DNA of 64,000 bases, taken from an uncultured delta proteobacterium (GTDB taxonomy: Bacteria; Desulfobacterota; Desulfovibrionia; Desulfovibrionales; Desulfovibrionaceae). The stretch covers positions 1,634,970-1,698,969 of the forward strand of contig LT599018.1 of assembly GCA_900079685.1 (NCBI GenBank). The letters are read 5' to 3'. The notes beneath the pieces are model-generated. The model was not told where the DNA came from. It made no database searches and worked only from the letters and a program-made list of their open reading frames with translations. The position numbers and the translations under genes were made by a program. This document shows, piece by piece, positions 16,204-26,855 of the stretch (the stretch's first letter is position 1; the number at the start of each line of letters is the position of its first letter).

Positions 16204-16698
16204 ATGAAAATACTGAATGAACAACTCCAAGCCCTGCAACAGCAAACCGAGGCGAAATCCAAAACGCAACGGGCGGACGGCACGTTCGACGCCCTGTTGT
16301 CCGAGGAACTCGGTGTAACTGCTGCGACAGGCCAGACAGTTCCCGGCCAGCCGGTTTCCACGGCTGCCGCGCTGTTCGGCCTGAACGGGATAAGCCCCGT
16401 CGGCTCCGTTGCGGCATCGCAGGATGATGCCGATGCCGCCCTCGCGGCCGTAGCCCAGTCCATTGACGCCATGCTCAGCGGCCTTGACGAGTACGCTGAG
16501 ACCCTGTCCTCCCCGCAAGGGGCAGACCTGCGCAAAGCCTACGGGATTTTGCAGGACATGGACAGCAACCTTGCCGCGCTGCGCGAACGTTCGCCGGACC
16601 TCGCCCAGCGCCACGGAGGCATGGCCGCCATGCTCGATGAGATAGCCGTCATCGCCAGAGCGGAAACCGTCAAGATGAACAGGGGCGACTACCTGTAA
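16204..16698 (+). CDS. unknown protein under sigma-54 control
   Basis: A 164-residue protein I do not recognise. It has no signal peptide or membrane segment. Residues 1-22 are Gln-rich and probably coiled-coil (LNEQLQALQQQTEAKSKTQ), followed by FDALLSEELG. The C-terminal half (LSGLDEYAETLSS to MDSNLAALRERSPDLAQ) is helical. The ATG at 16204 has a GGGGG stretch upstream. In Desulfovibrio-type bacteria sigma-54 drives many flagellar genes, so a motility or surface role is possible but unsupported by homology. It is monocistronic, ending at the hairpin at 16719. Confidence 0.75.
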   Translation: MKILNEQLQALQQQTEAKSKTQRADGTFDALLSEELGVTAATGQTVPGQPVSTAAALFGLNGISPVGSVAASQDDADAALAAVAQSIDAMLSGLDEYAETLSSPQGADLRKAYGILQDMDSNLAALRERSPDLAQRHGGMAAMLDEIAVIARAETVKMNRGDYL

Positions 16699-18825: not shown

Positions 18826-19779
18826 TTATTTCAGGTCGTCAAGAACGGCCTTGTACTCGACCATCAGCTTGTCCACCAATTTGGCCGAAGCCGCGGGGTC
18901 GAGGTTCTCAAGCAGGAAGCCCATATCCGCCATTTTCTTGGCGAATTCAGGGTCGGCGTTGGTCTTGGCGCACGCGTCGTACAAAATATTAATGATTTCC
19001 TTGGGGGTGCCGGGGGGCACGGCCAGGCCGCGATAGGCGCCTTCCACCAGGTCATAGCCCAGCTCCTTGAAGGTCGGCACGTCCGGCAGCACCGGGAAGC
19101 GCTTTTCCGTGGCCACGGCCAGGGCGCGCAGGTCGTTTTTATACTGCATGGCCATGGTGGTGTAGGTCATCAGGCCCGTGACGTGGCCGCCCAGGAAAGC
19201 GGGCATGGCATCGCCCGTGCCGGTGAAGGGCACGTAGGAAATCTTGACGTCCGCCAGTTTGTTCAGCCGCACCACGCCGAGATGGTTGGCAGTGGAACTG
19301 CCGCTGCCGCCCAGGGTCAGGGCGCCGGGCTTGGCTTTGGCGGCATCGATGAAGTCCTTCAAAGTCTTGTAGGGGCTGTCTTTGGGCACGGCCAGAATGT
19401 TGGGCGTGTTCATGAAGATCATGACCGGTTCAATTTCTTTGGTCTGATAGCCGGAAGTTTTACGCTGCAAGGGCTGCAGGATGATGTGCGGCAGGTTGAA
19501 GCCCGCGGTGCTGTAGCCGTCGGGTTTGGAGCGGAGCAGGTCGTTCCAGCCCACGGAACCGCCGCCGCCGGTCTTGTAGCTGATAAGCACGGACTGCCCC
19601 AGCGCTTTCTCAAGCAAGGGCTGCTGGGCGCGGGCGAAAATGTCGGATTCTCCGCCCGGATTGAAGGGAATGAGATAGTTTATCGGTTTTTCAGGAAATT
19701 TTGCAGCAGTGGCCGTTCCAAAGGAAAAAAGACACAGTGACAGGGCGCAGAGGACGGTGATGACGCGTTTTACACTCAC
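18826..19779 (-). CDS. tctC: tripartite tricarboxylate transporter binding protein (TctC/Bug family)
   Basis: A 317-residue periplasmic binding protein with a signal peptide (residues 1-26, ending GTATAA). PEKPINYLIPFNPGGESD, YKTGGGGSVGWN and the GSGSSTANHLGVV segment are Bug/TctC signatures for carboxylate ligands. The start is a GTG at 19779, six bases after AAGGAG. It is transcribed away from the GntR regulator and the tctAB-containing operon, and presumably delivers substrate to TctA/TctB. Ligand identity is unknown; Bug proteins bind citrate, tartrate-like acids, aromatic acids and more. Confidence 0.88.
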   Translation of the reverse strand: MSVKRVITVLCALSLCLFSFGTATAAKFPEKPINYLIPFNPGGESDIFARAQQPLLEKALGQSVLISYKTGGGGSVGWNDLLRSKPDGYSTAGFNLPHIILQPLQRKTSGYQTKEIEPVMIFMNTPNILAVPKDSPYKTLKDFIDAAKAKPGALTLGGSGSSTANHLGVVRLNKLADVKISYVPFTGTGDAMPAFLGGHVTGLMTYTTMAMQYKNDLRALAVATEKRFPVLPDVPTFKELGYDLVEGAYRGLAVPPGTPKEIINILYDACAKTNADPEFAKKMADMGFLLENLDPAASAKLVDKLMVEYKAVLDDLK

Positions 19780-19957
19780 AGCTATCTCCTTGGTAAAATG
19801 TGCGGTTCGCGCAACGGCAGCCGTTTTTTATATAGCAAAATACATTGCGCACCGATATTCCATACCACCATATCCATGTGACCACAAGGCGGCCGTAACT
19901 AGCATTTTGAAAACGGTTTTCCTGTTTTCCTTGCTTGATTATACGGAATGTGGTAAG

Positions 19958-19968
19958 TGGTCCTACCA
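19958..19968. promoter_or_regulatory. candidate FadR/GntR operator
   Basis: TGGTCCTACCA is a perfect palindrome of the TGGT-N3-ACCA type bound by FadR-subfamily GntR regulators. It lies 31 bases before the regulator start, so autoregulation and control of the downstream operon are likely. Confidence 0.6.
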
Positions 19969-19999
19969 CCTGTTTATTACCCTGAGCCGGCGGCACGGT

Positions 20000-20695
20000 A
20001 TGCACCCTTTACAGCAGATCAAAAAAATCATCGTCCACGACGCCATCATCGAAAGCGTCATGGAATATATCAAGGCCAACAATCTGGCTCTGGGAGACCG
20101 TATTCCCTCCGAGCGGTTTCTGGCCGAAGCCCTCAAGGTCAGCCGCGGGTCCGTGCGCGAAGCCATGAAAGCCCTTGAATCTTCGGGCGTTCTCGAAATC
20201 AGGCACGGCGGCGGGGCGTACCTGCGTTCTCTTTCGTCCGCCGTCTATTACCAGTACACCAGCGACCACAGAGAAAACCTGGAACTGTTGCAAAACCTTA
20301 TCCAGGCCCGTCAGGCTATTGAAGAATGGGCCATGGCGGAGGCTGCCCGCTTCATCACGCCCGCTCAAATCAAAGACCTGTACGCGCTGGAAAAAAAACA
20401 GACGAAAGCCGCGCAGCCCAACATGGACCTTGAAATCGCGGTCACCCGTCTGTTCGGCAACCCCGTGTTGCTGGAAATGCATGAAAAAATCGAGCAGCTC
20501 TGGAAGCAGAGCTATACGCGCCTGGGCATGGCGGCTTTTTCGCCCAGGGAGCGCCGCGAGCACCACCTGGCCATCATCAAAGGCCTGGAGAGCGGCGACG
20601 CCGCCGAGGCCCGCGCCGCCATCGGCCTGCACAACCGGTCCCTTGAAAAACATATTGCCGCGGCCATAGCCAAACTGGATGCGGTGAAGGAGTGA
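20000..20695 (+). CDS. GntR-family regulator, FadR/FCD subfamily
   Basis: A 231-residue repressor-type protein. The N-terminal winged helix covers residues 1-75 (LALGDRIPSERFLAEALKVSRGSVREAMKALESSGVLE, split over helix-turn-helix and wing). The C-terminal FCD domain has the histidine-bearing HHLAIIKGLESGD and AIGLHNRSL, likely metal/ligand-binding positions. It should respond to a carboxylate intermediate of the cluster. The ATG at 20000 is chosen because it starts the first GntR helix; the ribosome-binding site is weak. The stop codon lies 2 bases before the next gene's ATG. Confidence 0.87.
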   Translation: MHPLQQIKKIIVHDAIIESVMEYIKANNLALGDRIPSERFLAEALKVSRGSVREAMKALESSGVLEIRHGGGAYLRSLSSAVYYQYTSDHRENLELLQNLIQARQAIEEWAMAEAARFITPAQIKDLYALEKKQTKAAQPNMDLEIAVTRLFGNPVLLEMHEKIEQLWKQSYTRLGMAAFSPRERREHHLAIIKGLESGDAAEARAAIGLHNRSLEKHIAAAIAKLDAVKE

Positions 20696-20697
20696 GC

Positions 20698-21951
20698 ATG
20701 CACGCAGTGGAAAAAGTCCTGGCCTTTCACGCCGGGAAGGCGTCCGTCAGCACGGGGGAAATCGTCAACTGCGCCGTGGACGTCGCGGGGATCAACGATC
20801 TGTACCTGCAGACCGTCCGGTCCTTTTTCGAGGTCGGCGGCAAAAAGGTGGCCGTTCCGGAAAATGTGTTCATTTTCATGGACCATTACGCGCCCGCGTC
20901 CAGCATCATGCAGGCGGACAACCAGAAGCAGTTCCGGGAGTTCGCCCGCGAGCAGGGCATCGACGGGGTCATGGACATCGACCAGGGCGTCTGCCACCAG
21001 GTGGTCATTGACCATGGTCTTTCCCGGCCCGGCAAACTGGTGGTCATCACCGATTCGCACACCACCATACACGGCGCCCTGGGAGCCTTCGGCACCGGGG
21101 TGGGCGCGACGGACATGGCCACCATATTGCTGACGGGCAAGTTGTGGTTCCGCGTGCCGGAAGTTATCCGCATCAATCTTGAAGGAAAACTCCGCCCCGG
21201 CGTTTTCGCCAAGGACGTCATTTTGCACGTCATCGGCAAACTGAAGGCCGATTACGGCGTCTACCGGGCGGTGGAATTCACGGGGCCGGCCCTCGCCTCC
21301 ATCCCCATGTCCGAACGGTTCACGCTCTGCAACATGACCACGGAAATGGGCGCTAAAACGGCCTGGATCCAGCCCGACGCCGTCACCTTTGATTTTTTGA
21401 AAGCCAAGGGCGTCAGCGAATACACGGTGTACGACACAGACAAGGGCTTCGCCTATTTCGCCGAGCACAACTTCGACCTTTCCGGCCTGGAACCGCAGCT
21501 TGCCGCCCCGCACAGCGTGGACAACGTGGGTTCCATCTCGCAGTTCGCCGGCAAGCCCGTGCAGCAGGCCTATCTCGGCACCTGTACCGGCGGGCGGCTG
21601 GAAGATTTGACCGTGGCCGCCAGGATACTGGCCGGCAAACACATTGCCAAAGACACCCGCTTCATCGTGGTGCCCGCTTCCAAAAAAGTGCTGCTGGACG
21701 CCATGAAAACGGGCGTCATGCAGACCCTGGTGGAAGCCGGGGCCACCTTTGTCACCCCCGGCTGCGCCGCCTGCCTCGGCGTGCATGAAGGCATGCTGGC
21801 CTCGGGTGAGACCTGCATTTCCGCTTCCAGCCGGAACTTCCCCGGACGCATGGGCAGCGGCAAGGCGGAAATCTTTCTGGGTTCTCCGGCGAGCGTTGCC
21901 GCCGCGGCCCTGACGGGCAAACTTACCGACCCAGCGCCGTATCTGGCATAG
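20698..21951 (+). CDS. aconitase-family hydro-lyase large subunit (LeuC/DmdA/HacA-like)
   Basis: A 417-residue [4Fe-4S] hydro-lyase large subunit. Cluster cysteines are visible in LGTCTGGRLEDL and PGCAACLGVHEG. ITDSHTTIHGALGAFGTGVGATDMA is the family signature. With the small subunit that follows it isomerises or dehydrates a 2- or 3-hydroxy di/tricarboxylate. Its context with Tct transport and a racemase, not leucine genes, argues against isopropylmalate and for a catabolic substrate such as a dimethylmalate- or homocitrate-like acid. The ATG at 20698 follows AAGGAG. Confidence 0.88.
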   Translation: MHAVEKVLAFHAGKASVSTGEIVNCAVDVAGINDLYLQTVRSFFEVGGKKVAVPENVFIFMDHYAPASSIMQADNQKQFREFAREQGIDGVMDIDQGVCHQVVIDHGLSRPGKLVVITDSHTTIHGALGAFGTGVGATDMATILLTGKLWFRVPEVIRINLEGKLRPGVFAKDVILHVIGKLKADYGVYRAVEFTGPALASIPMSERFTLCNMTTEMGAKTAWIQPDAVTFDFLKAKGVSEYTVYDTDKGFAYFAEHNFDLSGLEPQLAAPHSVDNVGSISQFAGKPVQQAYLGTCTGGRLEDLTVAARILAGKHIAKDTRFIVVPASKKVLLDAMKTGVMQTLVEAGATFVTPGCAACLGVHEGMLASGETCISASSRNFPGRMGSGKAEIFLGSPASVAAAALTGKLTDPAPYLA

Positions 21952-21961
21952 GAGAAATGCG

Positions 21962-22468
21962 ATGAAAAAACAGTTACGCGGCAAAGCGTTCATTTTCGGC
22001 AAGAATATCGACACGGACCAGATTTATCCCGGCCGCTACCTTGACCTGACGGATGCGCCGGACGTTGCGAAACATGCCATGGAAGGCGCGTCCGACCCGA
22101 ACTTCGCCAGGGATTTCACAGCCGGGGACATCCTTGTGGCGGGCACGAACTTCGGCTGCGGCTCTTCCCGCGAGCATGCGGTTATCACCCTGGTCGCCGC
22201 CGGGGTCTCGGCGGTGCTGGCCGAATCCTTTGCCCGCATCTTTTACCGCAACGGCATCAACCTGGGGCTGCCGCTGCTGGTCTGCCCCGGCATTGACGGC
22301 CGGGTGGCGCGCGGGGACGAACTCGAAATCGACCTGGACGCGTCCCTTGTGCGCAACAAGACCAAAAACGAGACCTATCCGCTGGAACCGGTTTCCGACT
22401 ACGCCATGCACATTCTGGCCAGCGGCGGCATAAAGCCCCTGCTGCGAGCCGAATACGCCGGCAAGTGA
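21962..22468 (+). CDS. aconitase-family hydro-lyase small subunit (LeuD/DmdB-like)
   Basis: A 168-residue swivel-domain subunit. The signature NFGCGSSREHA is at about residues 61-71, and FGKNIDTDQIYPGRYL lies at the N-terminus. It completes the active site of the large subunit. The genes are 10 bases apart, with AGGAGAAA before the ATG. Length is standard for stand-alone LeuD-type subunits of the archaeal-like DmdB/HacB branch. A structured 181-base gap separates it from tctA. Confidence 0.88.
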   Translation: MKKQLRGKAFIFGKNIDTDQIYPGRYLDLTDAPDVAKHAMEGASDPNFARDFTAGDILVAGTNFGCGSSREHAVITLVAAGVSAVLAESFARIFYRNGINLGLPLLVCPGIDGRVARGDELEIDLDASLVRNKTKNETYPLEPVSDYAMHILASGGIKPLLRAEYAGK

Positions 22469-22481
22469 CGCCTTTTGCTTT

Positions 22482-22602
22482 AGAGCATTTTTACATTGAA
22501 ATTACTCTTTCAGGTAAAATGCTCTGGCCTTGCAAAACGGAGTGCAGCAAGGCCCGCGAGATTTCCGTAGGCGGGCTTTGCCCGCCGTTAAGCGGAAATC
22601 TC
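22482..22602 (+). repeat. structured intergenic element with two inverted repeats
   Basis: First hairpin: AGAGCATTTT (22482-22491) with AAAATGCTCT (22516-22525). Second: GAGATTTCCG (22558-22567) with CGGAAATCTC (22593-22602), which encloses a nested GGCGGGC-TTT-GCCCGCC stem (22570-22586). It lies inside an apparent operon between leuD-like and tctA genes. It could be an mRNA processing/stability element or a REP-like dispersed repeat. Confidence 0.6.
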
Positions 22603-22649
22603 AAGCGCAATATGCTGTGAGGTGCAATTTTTAGCCAAGGGGTATACAG

Positions 22650-24203
22650 ATGGATGTTTTGTTATCAGCGGCAGGAGAAGTCTTAACGTTACAGAACATG
22701 CTGTTCATGTCCATCGCCATGGTTCTGGGCATGCTTGCCGGCGCGCTGCCGGGTTTTTCCGCCACCATGGCCGTCGCCCTGATGGTGCCCTTCACCTTCA
22801 CCATGACGCCGGTCTCCGGCCTGGTGACCATCGGCGCTCTTTACTGCGCCAGCATTTTCGGCGGTTCCTTCTCGGCGATCCTCTTGAACACGCCGGGCAC
22901 GCCGTCCTCCATCGGCACGACCTTCGACGGCTACCCCATGGCGCGGCAGGGACGCGGCCTGGAAGCCCTGTATACGGCCACCTTCGCCTCCTGCGTGGGC
23001 GGGATTCTCGGCACGATCATGCTGATAGCCTTTGCCCTGCCGCTGGCCAGGGTGGCCCTGCGCTTCGGGCCGCCGGAATTCTTCTGGGTCGCCATTTTCG
23101 GCCTGACCATCATTTCCAGCCTGTCGGAAGAATCGCTCCTCAAGGGCATTGCCGGGGGCTTCCTGGGTTTGATGATTAGCATGATCGGCATCGCGCCCGT
23201 GGGCGGTGATGTGCGCTTCGACCTGGGCATACCCGATTTCCAGGGGGGGGTGGAACTTATCTCCGTGTTGATCGGCTTCTTCTGCATTCCGGAAATCCTG
23301 CGGATGGCCTTTGCGCCGGATATGGATTACGAGGTGACGGTCGATAAAGCGGACCGCGCCACGGTCAAGGACAACCCGCTCAAAGCCGCCTGGCATAACG
23401 TTATGGCCGTCAAGCACTGGGGGAACGTCTTGCGTTCGTCCATCATCGGGGGCTTTGTCGGCATCCTGCCCGGCGCGGGCGGCAACATAGCCAACCTGGT
23501 GGCCTACAACGAAACTAAACGGGTGGCCAAGGACCCGGAAACCTTTGGCAAGGGCAACCCCCAGGGCGTGGTGGCAACCGAATCATCCAACAACGCCGTG
23601 GTCGAAGGAGCCATGGTGCCGTTGCTGGCGCTCGGCGTGCCCGGCTCCCCTCCGGCGGCCATCATTTACGGAGCGCTGCTGCTGCAAGGCCTGGCGCCGG
23701 GGCCGGAACTGTTCACCACCCGAGGCGACATCACCTACGCTTTCCTCTTTTCCTTCTTCGTCGCCAACGTCATGCTGGTCATTTTCGGCATTCCCGCGGC
23801 CAAATGGACTTACAAAACCGTGGTCAGCATTCCTACCAGAGTACTGGTGCCCACCATCCTGCTCCTGACCATCGTGGGTTCCTACGCCATCCGCAGCAAC
23901 GAACTCGACGTTATTGTCATGGTCATCTGCGGCATTCTGGGCTATATTCTGCGCGAACTGGAGTTCAACGGCGCCCCCATCGTGCTGGGCCTGATTCTGG
24001 GGCCCATCGCCGAAAAAGGTTACGTACAGGGGCTTATTATGGGCAACGCCATATCCCCCGACATGCCCTGGCTGATCTTCTTCACCCGGAATTTGTGCCT
24101 CGTCCTGTTAGCCCTCTCGGTGCTTTCCGCCTGCTGGCCCCTGTTCCGCATGGTGCATGAAAAAAGAAAGGCCGCCAAGGCGGCGCAAGGAGGCGCGGCA
24201 TGA
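22650..24203 (+). CDS. tctA: tripartite tricarboxylate transporter permease, large subunit
   Basis: A 517-residue membrane protein with about 12 helices. GALPGFSATMAVALMVPFTF, NTPGTPSSIGTTFDGYPMA and the second-half repeat GILPGAGGNIANLVAY followed by GVPGSPPAAIIYGALLLQGLAPG are TctA signatures. With TctB and a TctC-type binding protein it imports carboxylates using a cation gradient. The ATG at 22650 is preceded by AAGGGG. The stop overlaps tctB by 4 bases (ATGA). Confidence 0.93.
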   Translation: MDVLLSAAGEVLTLQNMLFMSIAMVLGMLAGALPGFSATMAVALMVPFTFTMTPVSGLVTIGALYCASIFGGSFSAILLNTPGTPSSIGTTFDGYPMARQGRGLEALYTATFASCVGGILGTIMLIAFALPLARVALRFGPPEFFWVAIFGLTIISSLSEESLLKGIAGGFLGLMISMIGIAPVGGDVRFDLGIPDFQGGVELISVLIGFFCIPEILRMAFAPDMDYEVTVDKADRATVKDNPLKAAWHNVMAVKHWGNVLRSSIIGGFVGILPGAGGNIANLVAYNETKRVAKDPETFGKGNPQGVVATESSNNAVVEGAMVPLLALGVPGSPPAAIIYGALLLQGLAPGPELFTTRGDITYAFLFSFFVANVMLVIFGIPAAKWTYKTVVSIPTRVLVPTILLLTIVGSYAIRSNELDVIVMVICGILGYILRELEFNGAPIVLGLILGPIAEKGYVQGLIMGNAISPDMPWLIFFTRNLCLVLLALSVLSACWPLFRMVHEKRKAAKAAQGGAA

Positions 24204-24676
24204 GCACACCCACCCCTTCCCCCAAAAAACTGAACACGGACCTTTTCGGCGGCTTCATTCTGCTGGGCATGGCCGCATTCTTCCACTTCCAGATGGACCC
24301 GGATTTCTCGCCCCTGGCGGCCTATTTCCCCGAACACCTCATCATCGGCCTGGTTGTCCTGGGCGTGGCGCTGCTTATCAAAGCCTATGTGCGGCCCGTG
24401 TACATGGACAGCTTTGTCCACAAACTGAACGCCCCCGTTGTCTTCACCATCATTGTGGCGCTGGCCTGGGCGGTTCTGATGATATGGATAGGCTTCATCA
24501 TTACCAGCCTGGCGGCGATTTTCCTGATTCTGTGGCGGCTTGAGCCCAAAGCCGGGCGCACGCCGAAACGCCTCGCGATGTTCGCGGCCATCGCCGCCAT
24601 CGAAGTGGGCGTCATCCATGTCGTTTTCGTCATACTGCTGCAAGTAACCATGCCCGTCGGGCGCCTCTGGGGATAA
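24200..24676 (+). CDS. tctB: tripartite tricarboxylate transporter permease, small subunit
   Basis: A 158-residue protein with four hydrophobic segments, typical of the poorly conserved TctB family. DLFGGFILLGMAAFFHFQ and a PKAGRTPKRLAMFAAIAAIEVG stretch near the end fit the family pattern. AAGGAGG precedes the start, which overlaps the end of tctA by 4 bases. The racemase-like gene follows after 12 bases. Confidence 0.88.
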   Translation: MSTPTPSPKKLNTDLFGGFILLGMAAFFHFQMDPDFSPLAAYFPEHLIIGLVVLGVALLIKAYVRPVYMDSFVHKLNAPVVFTIIVALAWAVLMIWIGFIITSLAAIFLILWRLEPKAGRTPKRLAMFAAIAAIEVGVIHVVFVILLQVTMPVGRLWG

Positions 24677-24688
24677 AGGAGACCATTT

Positions 24689-25954
24689 ATGACCTATGAA
24701 CTCGCATACGGCAAAGGCAAACTGACCTTCACCCTGCCGGACGGAGTGAAACCCACAATCATCGTGCCCGGCGAAAAAACGGGCCTGGCCGACCCCCTGG
24801 CGGCCGCCTACGCCGCCGTGGCCAACCCCTCGGGCACAAAACCCCTGGTGGACATGCTGCGCGAGGCCAAGCCCAAGACCGTCGTGGTGGTGGTCAACGA
24901 CATCACGCGGCCCACCCCGTATACGATCATGCTGCCGCCGTTGCTCAAAGCGTTCGCCGACGCCGGCATCGAAGACGGGCAGGTGACCTTTCTCGTGGCC
25001 ACGGGCATTCACGACGTGCATACCGAGCAGGAAAACCGCGACATCTACGGTGACGACATCGTGGACCGGTTCCGCGTCATCAGCCACGACGCCTTTGCCA
25101 AGGATACCCACGTGTTCATGGGCAAATTCAAATCCGGCTACGATTTTTACGTCAACAAACTGGCCAAGGAAGCGGACTTCCTCATCACCCTCGGGGTGGT
25201 CATGCCGCACTATTTCGCGGGCTATTCCGGGGGCCGCAAGTCCATTCTGCCGGGCCTCGCGGGTAAAGACACCGTGGAAAAGAACCACGCCCGCATGGTG
25301 GAACTCATGGACAACCTGCCGCCCATCGACCAGAACCCGGTCAGCCTGGAAATGATCGAGGCCGCCCGCCAGGTGGGGGTCAAGTTCATCCTCAACGTGG
25401 TGGTCAACGACCGCCAGGAAGTGGTGAGCATCCACGCCGGAGACCTGGAAAAAGCCTGGCGGTCCGCGGTGGACGTCTCCTCCTCCATGTTCGAGGTTCC
25501 CTTCGACAAACAGGTGGACATCTGCGTGACCTGCGCTTCGGGCCACCCGCGCGACATCAACGCCTACCAGACGCAAAAGGCGCTGGACCACGCCGACCGC
25601 ATCACCAAGAAGGGCGGCACCATCATCCTGGCCGCCCAGTGCCCCACCGGGTACGGCGAGCACGTGTTCGAGGAATGGATGAACCGGGACTGGGCGCCCG
25701 TGAAAATCATGGACGAGGTCAAAAAGAACTTCGTCATGGGCGGGCATAAAGCCTACGGATTCGCCAAGGTCGCCGCGGAAAAGGAATACTGGCTGATTTC
25801 CGACTTCTGCGAAAAGGATACCAAAGCCCTTTTCGCCCTGAAAGCGAAAACCTTGCAGGAAGCCGTGGACGCGGCCGCCAAAAAGCACGGGCCGAACGCG
25901 ACCTGGGTGTATATGCCGGCGGGCAGCGTTTCGCTGCCGGTGCCGAGAAAATAG
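24689..25954 (+). CDS. LarA-family nickel-pincer racemase/epimerase
   Basis: A 421-residue homologue of nickel-dependent lactate racemase. Counting residues gives H108 (GIHDVHT), H174 (PHYFAGYS), K184 (GGRKSILPG) and H200 (KNH), the same numbers as the catalytic, cofactor-linking and nickel-binding residues of the Lactobacillus plantarum enzyme. The DITRPTP substrate-binding motif and a Q294-K297 pair are also present. It should invert the configuration of a 2-hydroxy acid. The operon, with an aconitase-type hydro-lyase and a Tct carrier, suggests a hydroxy di/tricarboxylate rather than lactate. larB is at 34156-34950. The operon ends at the terminator at 25977. Confidence 0.88.
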   Translation: MTYELAYGKGKLTFTLPDGVKPTIIVPGEKTGLADPLAAAYAAVANPSGTKPLVDMLREAKPKTVVVVVNDITRPTPYTIMLPPLLKAFADAGIEDGQVTFLVATGIHDVHTEQENRDIYGDDIVDRFRVISHDAFAKDTHVFMGKFKSGYDFYVNKLAKEADFLITLGVVMPHYFAGYSGGRKSILPGLAGKDTVEKNHARMVELMDNLPPIDQNPVSLEMIEAARQVGVKFILNVVVNDRQEVVSIHAGDLEKAWRSAVDVSSSMFEVPFDKQVDICVTCASGHPRDINAYQTQKALDHADRITKKGGTIILAAQCPTGYGEHVFEEWMNRDWAPVKIMDEVKKNFVMGGHKAYGFAKVAAEKEYWLISDFCEKDTKALFALKAKTLQEAVDAAAKKHGPNATWVYMPAGSVSLPVPRK

Positions 25955-25976
25955 GAATCGGAAAAACTGTATGAAA

Positions 25977-26010
25977 CGAAAGCCCCGGGATTTCCCGGGG
26001 CTTTCGTTTT
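25977..26010. terminator. rho-independent terminator between racemase and aldo/keto reductase genes
   Basis: A 13-bp stem (25977-25989 with 25994-26006), ATTT loop, followed by TTTT on the plus strand; it can also act for the convergent minus gene. Confidence 0.85.
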
Positions 26011-26021
26011 GGCCGTCGCGT

Positions 26022-26855
26022 TTACAGCATTTCCAGGTGCATCTTCCGGGTCGGCGCGCGGAAAACCGCGTCAAACTCGGCCAGGTCCTGGGGCGTCAGA
26101 ACGAGGTCGATTGCGGCCGCGTTTTCCCGCGCATGGGCCGGGTTTCCGGCCTTGGGGATGGCGATGACGGCGGGATTGCGCAAAACCCAGGCCAGCGCCG
26201 CCTGGGCCGGGGTGGCGTTATGCCGTTTGGCCACGGCAACGAGGGTCCTGTCGTTAAGGATACGGCTCTGCTCAATGGGCGAATAGGCCATGACCGGGAT
26301 CGAATGCTCCTTGCACCAGGGCAGGAGATCGTACTCAACGCCCCGGCGCGAGAGGTTGTACAAAATCTGGTTGGTGGCGCAGGTATTGCCCTTGGGGATG
26401 GAGACGATTTCCTCCATCTCTGCCACGTCCATGTTGGAGACGCCCCAATGGCGGATTTTGCCCTCCCGTTGCAGCTCCAGCATGCTCGCGATGGTGTCCT
26501 CGAAGGGATAACTCCCCTGCCAGTGCAGCAGGTACAGGTCGATGACATCCGTGCGCAGCCGTTTGAGGCTCCGCTCGCACGCCTTTTTGGTGCCCTGGCG
26601 GGACGCGTTGGACGGCAGCACCTTGCTGACCAGAAACACCTGGTCCCGCCGCCCGGCAAGGGCCTCGCCCACAAGTTCCTCGGACCGGCCGGAACCGTAC
26701 ATCTCCGCCGTGTCGATAAGGGTCATGCCAAGGTCGATGCCCGTTTGCAGCGCGGTTATCTCACCCGCCCGCTTCGATGCGGATTCGCCCATATACCAGG
26801 TGCCTTGGCCCAGCGCGGGAACCTTTGTCCCGCCGGGAAGGGTGACGGTACGCAT
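26022..26855 (-). CDS. aldo/keto reductase
   Basis: A 277-residue NAD(P)H-dependent (beta/alpha)8 reductase. The catalytic Asp and Tyr are in LIDTAEMYGSG, the Lys in LVSKVLPSNAS, and the His in YLLHWQG. The cofactor-binding end has IAIPKAGNPAH. It reduces aldehydes or ketones; the substrate is unknown. The ATG at 26855 follows a strong GAGGAGG site; a longer frame reaching 26906 begins within the preceding terminator. It stands alone, convergent to the LarA operon. Confidence 0.9.
   Translation of the reverse strand: MRTVTLPGGTKVPALGQGTWYMGESASKRAGEITALQTGIDLGMTLIDTAEMYGSGRSEELVGEALAGRRDQVFLVSKVLPSNASRQGTKKACERSLKRLRTDVIDLYLLHWQGSYPFEDTIASMLELQREGKIRHWGVSNMDVAEMEEIVSIPKGNTCATNQILYNLSRRGVEYDLLPWCKEHSIPVMAYSPIEQSRILNDRTLVAVAKRHNATPAQAALAWVLRNPAVIAIPKAGNPAHARENAAAIDLVLTPQDLAEFDAVFRAPTRKMHLEML

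Follow-up and report, generated by a model that had tools for sequence, protein, structure and literature searches.

A candidate operon for maleate uptake and conversion, with a LeuCD-type hydro-lyase and a malate racemase-like LarA protein, in an uncultured member of the Desulfovibrionaceae

Gene content of the locus

We analysed a stretch of 64,000 nucleotides, hereafter the window, from contig LT599018.1 (positions 1,634,970 to 1,698,969) of the genome assembly GCA_900079685.1 of an uncultured delta proteobacterium of the Desulfovibrionaceae. At positions 18826-25954, it harbours a gene cluster for a tripartite tricarboxylate transporter (TctCAB), a FadR-type regulator of the GntR family, a two-subunit [4Fe-4S] hydro-lyase of the LeuCD type and a LarA racemase of the kind that uses the nickel-pincer nucleotide (NPN) cofactor. 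This composition, recognised in an initial annotation of the DNA, was confirmed: the seven open reading frames (ORFs) are complete and intact, and a Pfam scan placed every product above its cut-off (Table 1). The tctC gene is divergent from the gntR-leuC-leuD-tctA-tctB-larA series, at the end of which lies a hairpin. All three transporter subunits are thus present, and the closest PDB chains of TctC are TctC/Bug-type binding proteins; unlike in the usual TctCAB arrangement, tctC is divergent from tctAB. Comparison with G001, a sister genome from the same genus, points to ATG 20000 as the likely start of gntR. That of leuC is likely ATG 20698, in an ORF already open from GTG 20692.

Gaps of 2 nt separate gntR from leuC, 10 nt leuC from leuD, 181 nt leuD from tctA and 12 nt tctB from larA, and tctA and tctB overlap by 4 nt. 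The tightly spaced plus-strand genes are likely to be co-transcribed. The hairpin after larA has a folding energy of -34.0 kcal/mol (fold of 25955-26025); it is absent from the output of our promoter/terminator pattern scan. Within the leuD-tctA spacer, 72 nt recur at 86% identity at one other place among the genome stretches compared (L025:865-936), in the manner of repetitive extragenic palindromes.

The gap between tctC and gntR contains an inverted repeat with the motif TGGT-N3-ACCA. This is the sole occurrence of the motif in the window, where about one is expected by chance according to our estimate. As the same motif precedes gntR in G001 (L117:2456), the palindrome is a fair operator candidate, and the operon may be controlled by the GntR-type regulator. 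Between tctC and gntR, the pattern scan did not detect any promoter-like site.

Table 1. Features of the cluster and their positions in the window
Feature	Position	Strand	Basis
tctC, periplasmic substrate-binding protein of the tripartite tricarboxylate transporter, 317 aa	18826..19779	-	PF03401, 164 bits
Operator-like inverted repeat GTGGTAAGTGGTCCTACCAC containing TGGTCCTACCA (19958-19968), tctC-gntR gap	19950..19969		Candidate GntR/FadR site
gntR, GntR-family (FCD) regulator, 231 aa	20000..20695	+	PF00392 and PF07729 over cut-off
leuC, LeuC-like large subunit, proposed large subunit of a maleate hydratase, 417 aa	20698..21951	+	PF00330, 323 bits
leuD, LeuD-like small subunit, specificity loop YLDL, 168 aa	21962..22468	+	Aconitase_C over cut-off; TIGR02087 (LeuD/DmdB), 180 bits, cut-off 109
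Structured leuD-tctA spacer with strong hairpins, 181 nt	22469..22649		Folding and blastn
tctA, large membrane subunit of the transporter, 517 aa	22650..24203	+	PF01970, 483 bits
tctB, small membrane subunit, 158 aa	24200..24676	+	PF07331, 41 bits, cut-off 29
larA, NPN-dependent racemase of malate-racemase type, 421 aa	24689..25954	+	PF09861, 199 bits
Hairpin of 17 bp and T run, probable terminator between convergent larA and aldo/keto reductase genes	25973..26010		Folding

LarA resembles the nickel-dependent malate racemases

Both the Lar_N and LarA_C domains of the protein score over their Pfam cut-offs, and the catalytic Asp/His/His/Lys and NPN-contacting Arg/Lys/His residues are all in place, as expected of a member of the LarA superfamily. 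Its best NCBIfam model is that of the nickel-dependent malate racemase LarAH6, and its best solved structure is the malate racemase Mar2 (6d6z). Malate racemases usually have His or Gln followed by Lys at the positions of W358 and T359 of LarA1, the first two loop positions being more variable (PMC11770544). The window LarA has H353-K354 at these signature positions. For a broader comparison, we aligned 34 LarA rows, including partial second copies from G138 (L083) and G140 (L082) and one protein from outside the family, L031, with G159 left out. The His-Lys signature is present in all 32 distinct sequences that span the site, which come from 31 of the 32 family genomes with such a LarA and from L031. 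The Gln preceding the catalytic Lys is retained throughout, and the catalytic and NPN-binding residues are conserved except for one K184N substitution and gaps in partial sequences. The protein thereby shares with Mar1/LarAH5, Mar2/LarAH6 and LarAH62 the catalytic and NPN-contact residues, the signature and the Gln before the catalytic Lys. Based on these features, LarA very probably acts on malate.

In the LarA mechanism, the alpha-hydrogen is transferred as a hydride (PMC11851776). C2 tertiary alcohols lack this hydrogen and are therefore not LarA substrates. This rules out citramalate and dimethylmalate, both among the compounds that the initial annotation had proposed to assay, as well as citrate, and the malate-racemase signature also speaks against all three. 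The argument leaves tartrate and isocitrate among the possible substrates.

With regard to the NPN cofactor, the genome encodes a LarC1 protein over its cut-off, with a His-rich N-terminus (L021:6677-7543). A part resembling the C-terminal LarC2 is found on another contig and has an in-frame TGA (L012, C1:1851270-1851743). There are eight Lar_N matches in the genome (E <=0.001), seven of them over cut-off (e.g. L019 and L020), which looks like a large number of NPN-type racemase homologues for 4 Mb. In LarA of the sister genome G001 (L014/L028), Asn replaces the conserved NPN-binding Lys (GGRN versus GGRK). L031 (JAISTL010000057.1) is 75% identical to the window LarA and is found on a contig of a metagenome-assembled genome (MAG) labelled Methylobacteriaceae, reflecting either transfer or misbinning.

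The hydro-lyase belongs to a distinct LeuCD clade

LeuC and LeuD are two aconitase-family subunits with the three cysteines of the [4Fe-4S] cluster, which matches the make-up of LeuCD-type maleate hydratases (EC 4.2.1.31); all 39 LeuC-type sequences compared retain these cysteines. LeuCD shares its fold family and subunit make-up with 3-isopropylmalate dehydratase, from which it differs in that it forms a separate clade, does not adjoin leuA or leuB, and falls below the equivalog cut-offs for LEU2 (420 of 611 bits for LeuC) and leud (170 of 246 bits for LeuD). In a maximum-likelihood tree built without the partial repeats L055 and L049 and without rows that share >99.5% identity with the window protein, the cluster LeuC and its orthologues from other Desulfobacterota families form one group (support 100/99), separate from LeuC proteins of 39-44% identity. 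This group includes the long-branched L169 (G606, 52%), the placing of L169 and L170 being unsure. Outside the family, cluster-type orthologues of 62-71% identity were found in 6 of 395 genomes of the phylum besides the window.

The nearest solved structures of both subunits are those of an isopropylmalate/citramalate isomerase, which from the entry names we take to be that of Methanocaldococcus jannaschii. LeuCD-type enzymes act on cis-dicarboxylate alkenes, and a loop of the small subunit LeuD sets their specificity. In the cluster-type LeuD proteins of the family, this loop reads YLDL, FLDL, FVEL, FVEI or LLTI, and YLEL or YLDL in those of other families (four of the six, and L167; the L168 match spans 37 residues only). 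The solved isopropylmalate/citramalate isomerase has YLVY instead, and homoaconitase has YLRT.

HbzIJ, the maleate hydratase of the gentisate pathway, is reportedly LeuCD-like. HbzIJ, likened here by description only, and M. jannaschii LeuCD have the two-subunit aconitase-family make-up and the three cluster cysteines in common with our enzyme, which differs from them by its pairing with a racemase and, in relatives, with fumarate reductase. Maleate hydratase activity has been reported for M. jannaschii LeuC (PMC8307300), and the gentisate pathway is known to include a specific maleate hydratase (cited in PMC12294151). Taken with the gene neighbours in relatives described below, the activity of the M. 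jannaschii enzyme suggests that LeuCD probably acts on maleate.

The genome of 4.0 Mb is assembled in three contigs, and the cluster LeuC is the sole Aconitase-family protein found in it. A leuB gene is present (493 bits, cut-off 353; L121:7332-8432, C1:1711k). No leuA was recognised among six HMGL-like matches, two of them tested with models and four judged from ORF lists, the best reaching 149 of 599 bits against leuA_bact. Finding leuB without a canonical leuA or a second leuC suggests a remnant of the leucine pathway or an assembly gap. The fumarase genes fumAB of this genome adjoin a FrdA-like gene, whose product is 37% identical to FrdA of the relatives.

LeuC and LarA co-occur in the family

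We searched 288 genomes of the family for cluster-type LeuC (at least 64% identity) and cluster-type LarA (E up to 1e-100). LarA was found in 32 genomes, LeuC in 13 and both in 12 (Fisher p = 5e-12, in a test that ignores shared ancestry). Among the 205 high-quality genomes, four of the five with LeuC also carry LarA, compared with 18 LarA genomes overall (p = 2e-4). The association is thus more than chance. Of the 12 genomes with both, seven have the two genes on one stretch (G000, G134, G135, G136, G138, G140 and G214; in G136, the contig ends within LarA). In G001, they are on two contigs that both end within tctA.

Relatives with a close LarA include MAGs named Desulfovibrio, Mailhella, Avidesulfovibrio and uncultured Desulfovibrionaceae. 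One of these MAGs comes from goat colon, and several others appear to come from termite guts. Nothing close was detected in a plasmid collection: among the matches listed (15 of 605 rows, 17 records), the best were of ~46% identity for LeuC and ~34% for LarA.

Genes of C4 metabolism surround LarA and LeuCD in relatives

We mapped the neighbourhoods of 26 of the 32 LarA loci, those of G114, G143, G156, G159, G175 and G176 being left out. Genes for fumarase and/or fumarate reductase are present at ten of them (G133, G134, G135, G136, G138, G139, G140, G162, G308 and G310), Tct genes at four (G000, G001, G214 and G223) and TRAP carrier genes at four (G123, G113, G146 and G111). In some relatives, DASS or TRAP carriers are found near LarA instead of TctCAB. 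A malic enzyme gene, split over two overlapping ORFs, is also present in G223, and another immediately precedes larA in G246; such a neighbour of LarAH group 6 has already been mentioned (PMC7583248). No neighbour was recognised at seven loci (G177, G168, G097, G169, G172, G064 and G012, the last with LarA at a contig edge and one side visible).

The most complete arrangement is that of G134, in which the gene order leuC-leuD-larA-fumA-fumB-frdA-frdB-frdC-frdD is that of the reactions proposed below. Family models back the fumarase and quinol:fumarate reductase of this locus, FrdC and FrdD being assigned by Pfam. Its FumA scores 392 bits with the fumarase model (cut-off 276) versus 175 of 365 with that of the tartrate dehydratase TtdA, and the corresponding values for G140 are 326 and 144. 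The beta subunit of G134 passes TIGR00723 (168 over 145), a model that does not separate fumarase from tartrate dehydratase. The order in G140 is fumAB-DASS-LeuCD-LarA-frd, with G136 alike as far as the contig end inside LarA, and that in G214 is LeuCD-TctCAB-LarA. Genes for DASS carriers and L-malate dehydrogenase-type proteins are part of the cluster in several relatives. The latter are found near LeuCD in G135, G138, G308, G310 and G297, and none was detected in the examined stretches of G134 and G140, nor in G136 up to the contig end. Three loci combine LarA, fumarase and fumarate reductase without LeuCD (G133, G139 and G162). The available parts of PMC7583248 and PMC11770544 make no mention of LeuCD as a neighbour of LarA, and 'dehydratase' occurs 0 times in both main texts.

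Beyond the family, LeuCD is found with Tct genes in three of the six genomes (G681, G469 and G493). In another Desulfobacterota family, orthologous LeuCD genes are accompanied by a tartrate/D-malate-type dehydrogenase and TctCAB, but LarA does not adjoin them. Both D-malate and tartrate are substrates of DmlA-type dehydrogenases (PMC11353897).

We also noted an alpha/beta hydrolase gene beside the LeuCD and L-malate dehydrogenase genes of two relatives (L107:7372-8250 and L114:10939-11814), the L107 protein weakly matching haloalkane dehalogenase models. Another LeuC (42%) of G001 is encoded beside an NADH:flavin oxidoreductase-type protein (L123, G001:C317) and possibly belongs to a different hydro-lyase pathway. 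Lastly, an ORF of ~163 aa located 5' of the cluster (16204-16698) has no Pfam match and is conserved in G001 (L117:1818-2306), where the cation antiporter and tctC genes that come next in the window are missing.

A proposed route from maleate to succinate

Taken together, these analyses suggest that the cluster is probably an operon for the uptake and conversion of maleate, and possibly also of D-malate. TctCAB would import the C4 dicarboxylate, LeuCD would hydrate maleate to D-(R)-malate by means of its [4Fe-4S] cluster, and LarA, with its nickel-pincer nucleotide, would convert D-malate to L-(S)-malate. A class I fumarase would then yield fumarate, and fumarate reductase succinate; the genes for these last two enzymes are elsewhere in the genome of the window and inside the same cluster in relatives. 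D-malate is not used by fumarase or L-malate dehydrogenase, and the racemase would therefore close the gap between the hydratase and the fumarase. The net result would be an oxygen-free route from the cis isomer, maleate, to the trans isomer, fumarate, by hydration, racemisation and dehydration, which would supply fumarate respiration. We consider it about as likely as not that the cluster is a dedicated module for anaerobic maleate respiration, in which three enzymes, the Fe-S maleate hydratase, the nickel-pincer malate racemase and fumarase, would successively convert maleate to fumarate, the electron acceptor used by fumarate reductase.

This scheme agrees with the initial annotation in placing uptake, an Fe-S hydro-lyase and an NPN racemase in a single pathway. 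Comparative genomics makes it more specific: the imported compound would be a C4 dicarboxylate and the hydro-lyase is of the LeuCD type. The order of events proposed at that time, inversion followed by dehydration, is likely to be the opposite, with hydration of an unsaturated acid preceding inversion of the resulting R-hydroxy acid. The view that no characterised pathway has this composition holds for the combination and not for its parts, as maleate hydratase activity of a LeuCD-type enzyme and NPN-dependent malate racemases have each been described on their own. In a published scheme, R-malate is converted to maleate by the hydratase acting in reverse, and then to fumarate by maleate isomerase (PMC8307300). 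The same paper describes racemisation of R- to S-malate in cultures of Rhodobacter capsulatus, calling the gene unknown. D- to L-malate racemisation is thus common to both systems; however, that of R. capsulatus is described as Mn-dependent (PMC12294151), with no maleate step reported in the available parts of these sources. In the open-licence literature, we found no gene-supported series from maleate through D-malate, L-malate and fumarate to succinate, no joint treatment of lactate racemase, isopropylmalate dehydratase and the tripartite tricarboxylate transporter, and nothing on maleate and fumarate respiration in sulfate-reducing bacteria. Each step is known singly, and the combination seems to be new.

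Points against the proposal and alternative substrates

Several observations weigh against the maleate route. LarA narrowly misses the LarAH6 cut-off (488.1 versus 500 bits), which no protein exceeds in any of the six genomes searched. The second catalytic His is followed by Tyr-Phe in the window LarA and by Tyr-Lys (Lys173) in Mar2, whose second loop residue is Lys (PMC7583248), and Phe occupies this position throughout the compared LarA sequences. The loop signature of LeuD is soft, as an acidic residue is also found in 3 of 16 non-cluster LeuD proteins (YMEL). Of the 12 genomes that have both, four (G308, G310, G064 and G012) carry LeuCD and LarA unlinked in their assembled contigs, and cluster-type LeuC is missing from 20 of the 32 LarA genomes. 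The thirteenth LeuC genome, G297, has a LeuCD-DASS-L-malate dehydrogenase locus and no close LarA (best match to the LarAH6 model, 124 bits), which leaves D-malate without an obvious user. In three genomes of family f25, neither a transporter nor a racemase is encoded alongside LeuCD. The LeuCD and Tct genes are accompanied by genes for an enolase-superfamily enzyme and a TtdAB/FumAB-like pair in G681, and for an enolase-superfamily enzyme and a tartrate dehydrogenase-type protein (566 over a cut-off of 470) in G469, all of which fit tartrate too. G493 has a fragment that resembles the G469 dehydrogenase gene, by similarity only, and a short LeuD match.

Tartrate is the main rival substrate. 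One isomer would be imported, LarA would epimerise D- or L-tartrate with meso-tartrate, and LeuCD would dehydrate one isomer to oxaloacetate, for use by malate dehydrogenase, fumarase and fumarate reductase. We consider this route unlikely: we know of no tartrate dehydratase in the aconitase family, and the three loci in which LarA accompanies fumarase and fumarate reductase in the absence of LeuCD would be left unexplained. The L-malate dehydrogenase genes near LeuCD in five relatives argue for tartrate, but the stretches of G134, G140 and G136 do not share them. As G297 has LeuCD and L-malate dehydrogenase without LarA, it fits tartrate better than maleate. Malate racemases of the superfamily do epimerise tartrate as a side activity, but that of LarAH62 is ~60- to 180-fold under malate in kcat/KM (PMC11770544). 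The dehydrogenase neighbour of LeuCD in G469 also suggests tartrate, but it is ambiguous given the D-malate activity of DmlA-type enzymes (PMC11353897). A substituted diacid is quite unlikely. LeuCD would in that case hydrate citraconate or another alkyl-maleate to a 3-alkylmalate, which retains its alpha-hydrogen and whose C2 LarA would epimerise, and the isopropylmalate/citramalate isomerase as closest solved structure is consistent with this. Nevertheless, fumarase, malate dehydrogenase, malic enzyme and fumarate reductase, the neighbours in relatives, are enzymes of unsubstituted C4 acids, and we recognised no enzyme that would process a methylated acid further.

There is a slim chance that D-malate, for instance from carnitine breakdown in the gut, is the only substrate, imported by TctCAB and converted to L-malate by LarA, with LeuCD on a side branch or working towards maleate. 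Bacterial carnitine degradation proceeds through D-malate (PMC11353897), and the loci of G133, G139 and G162, with LarA, a carrier, fumarase and fumarate reductase, would suit such a role; this reading gives no reason for LeuCD and LarA having stayed together on one stretch in seven genomes. Lastly, LeuCD might be an ordinary isopropylmalate isomerase of leucine biosynthesis that neighbours LarA and the tct genes by chance, as could be surmised from the presence of leuB and from LeuC being alone of its family in the genome. However, no tested HMGL-like protein passes a leuA model, all 12 other genomes with the cluster LeuC hold further Aconitase-family genes, and LeuC and LeuD fall short of LEU2 and leud, form a separate clade and travel with LarA. 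We rejected this role on these grounds as highly improbable.

Implications

If the maleate route is correct, it would give the NPN malate racemases a defined physiological pathway. The in vivo roles of the LarA superfamily were described in 2020 as an important remaining question (PMC7583248), which becomes directly testable with a conserved cluster whose neighbouring genes define the substrate. The cluster also offers an annotation for a LeuCD clade otherwise named after leucine synthesis, and it suggests a maleate/D-malate route in gut bacteria.

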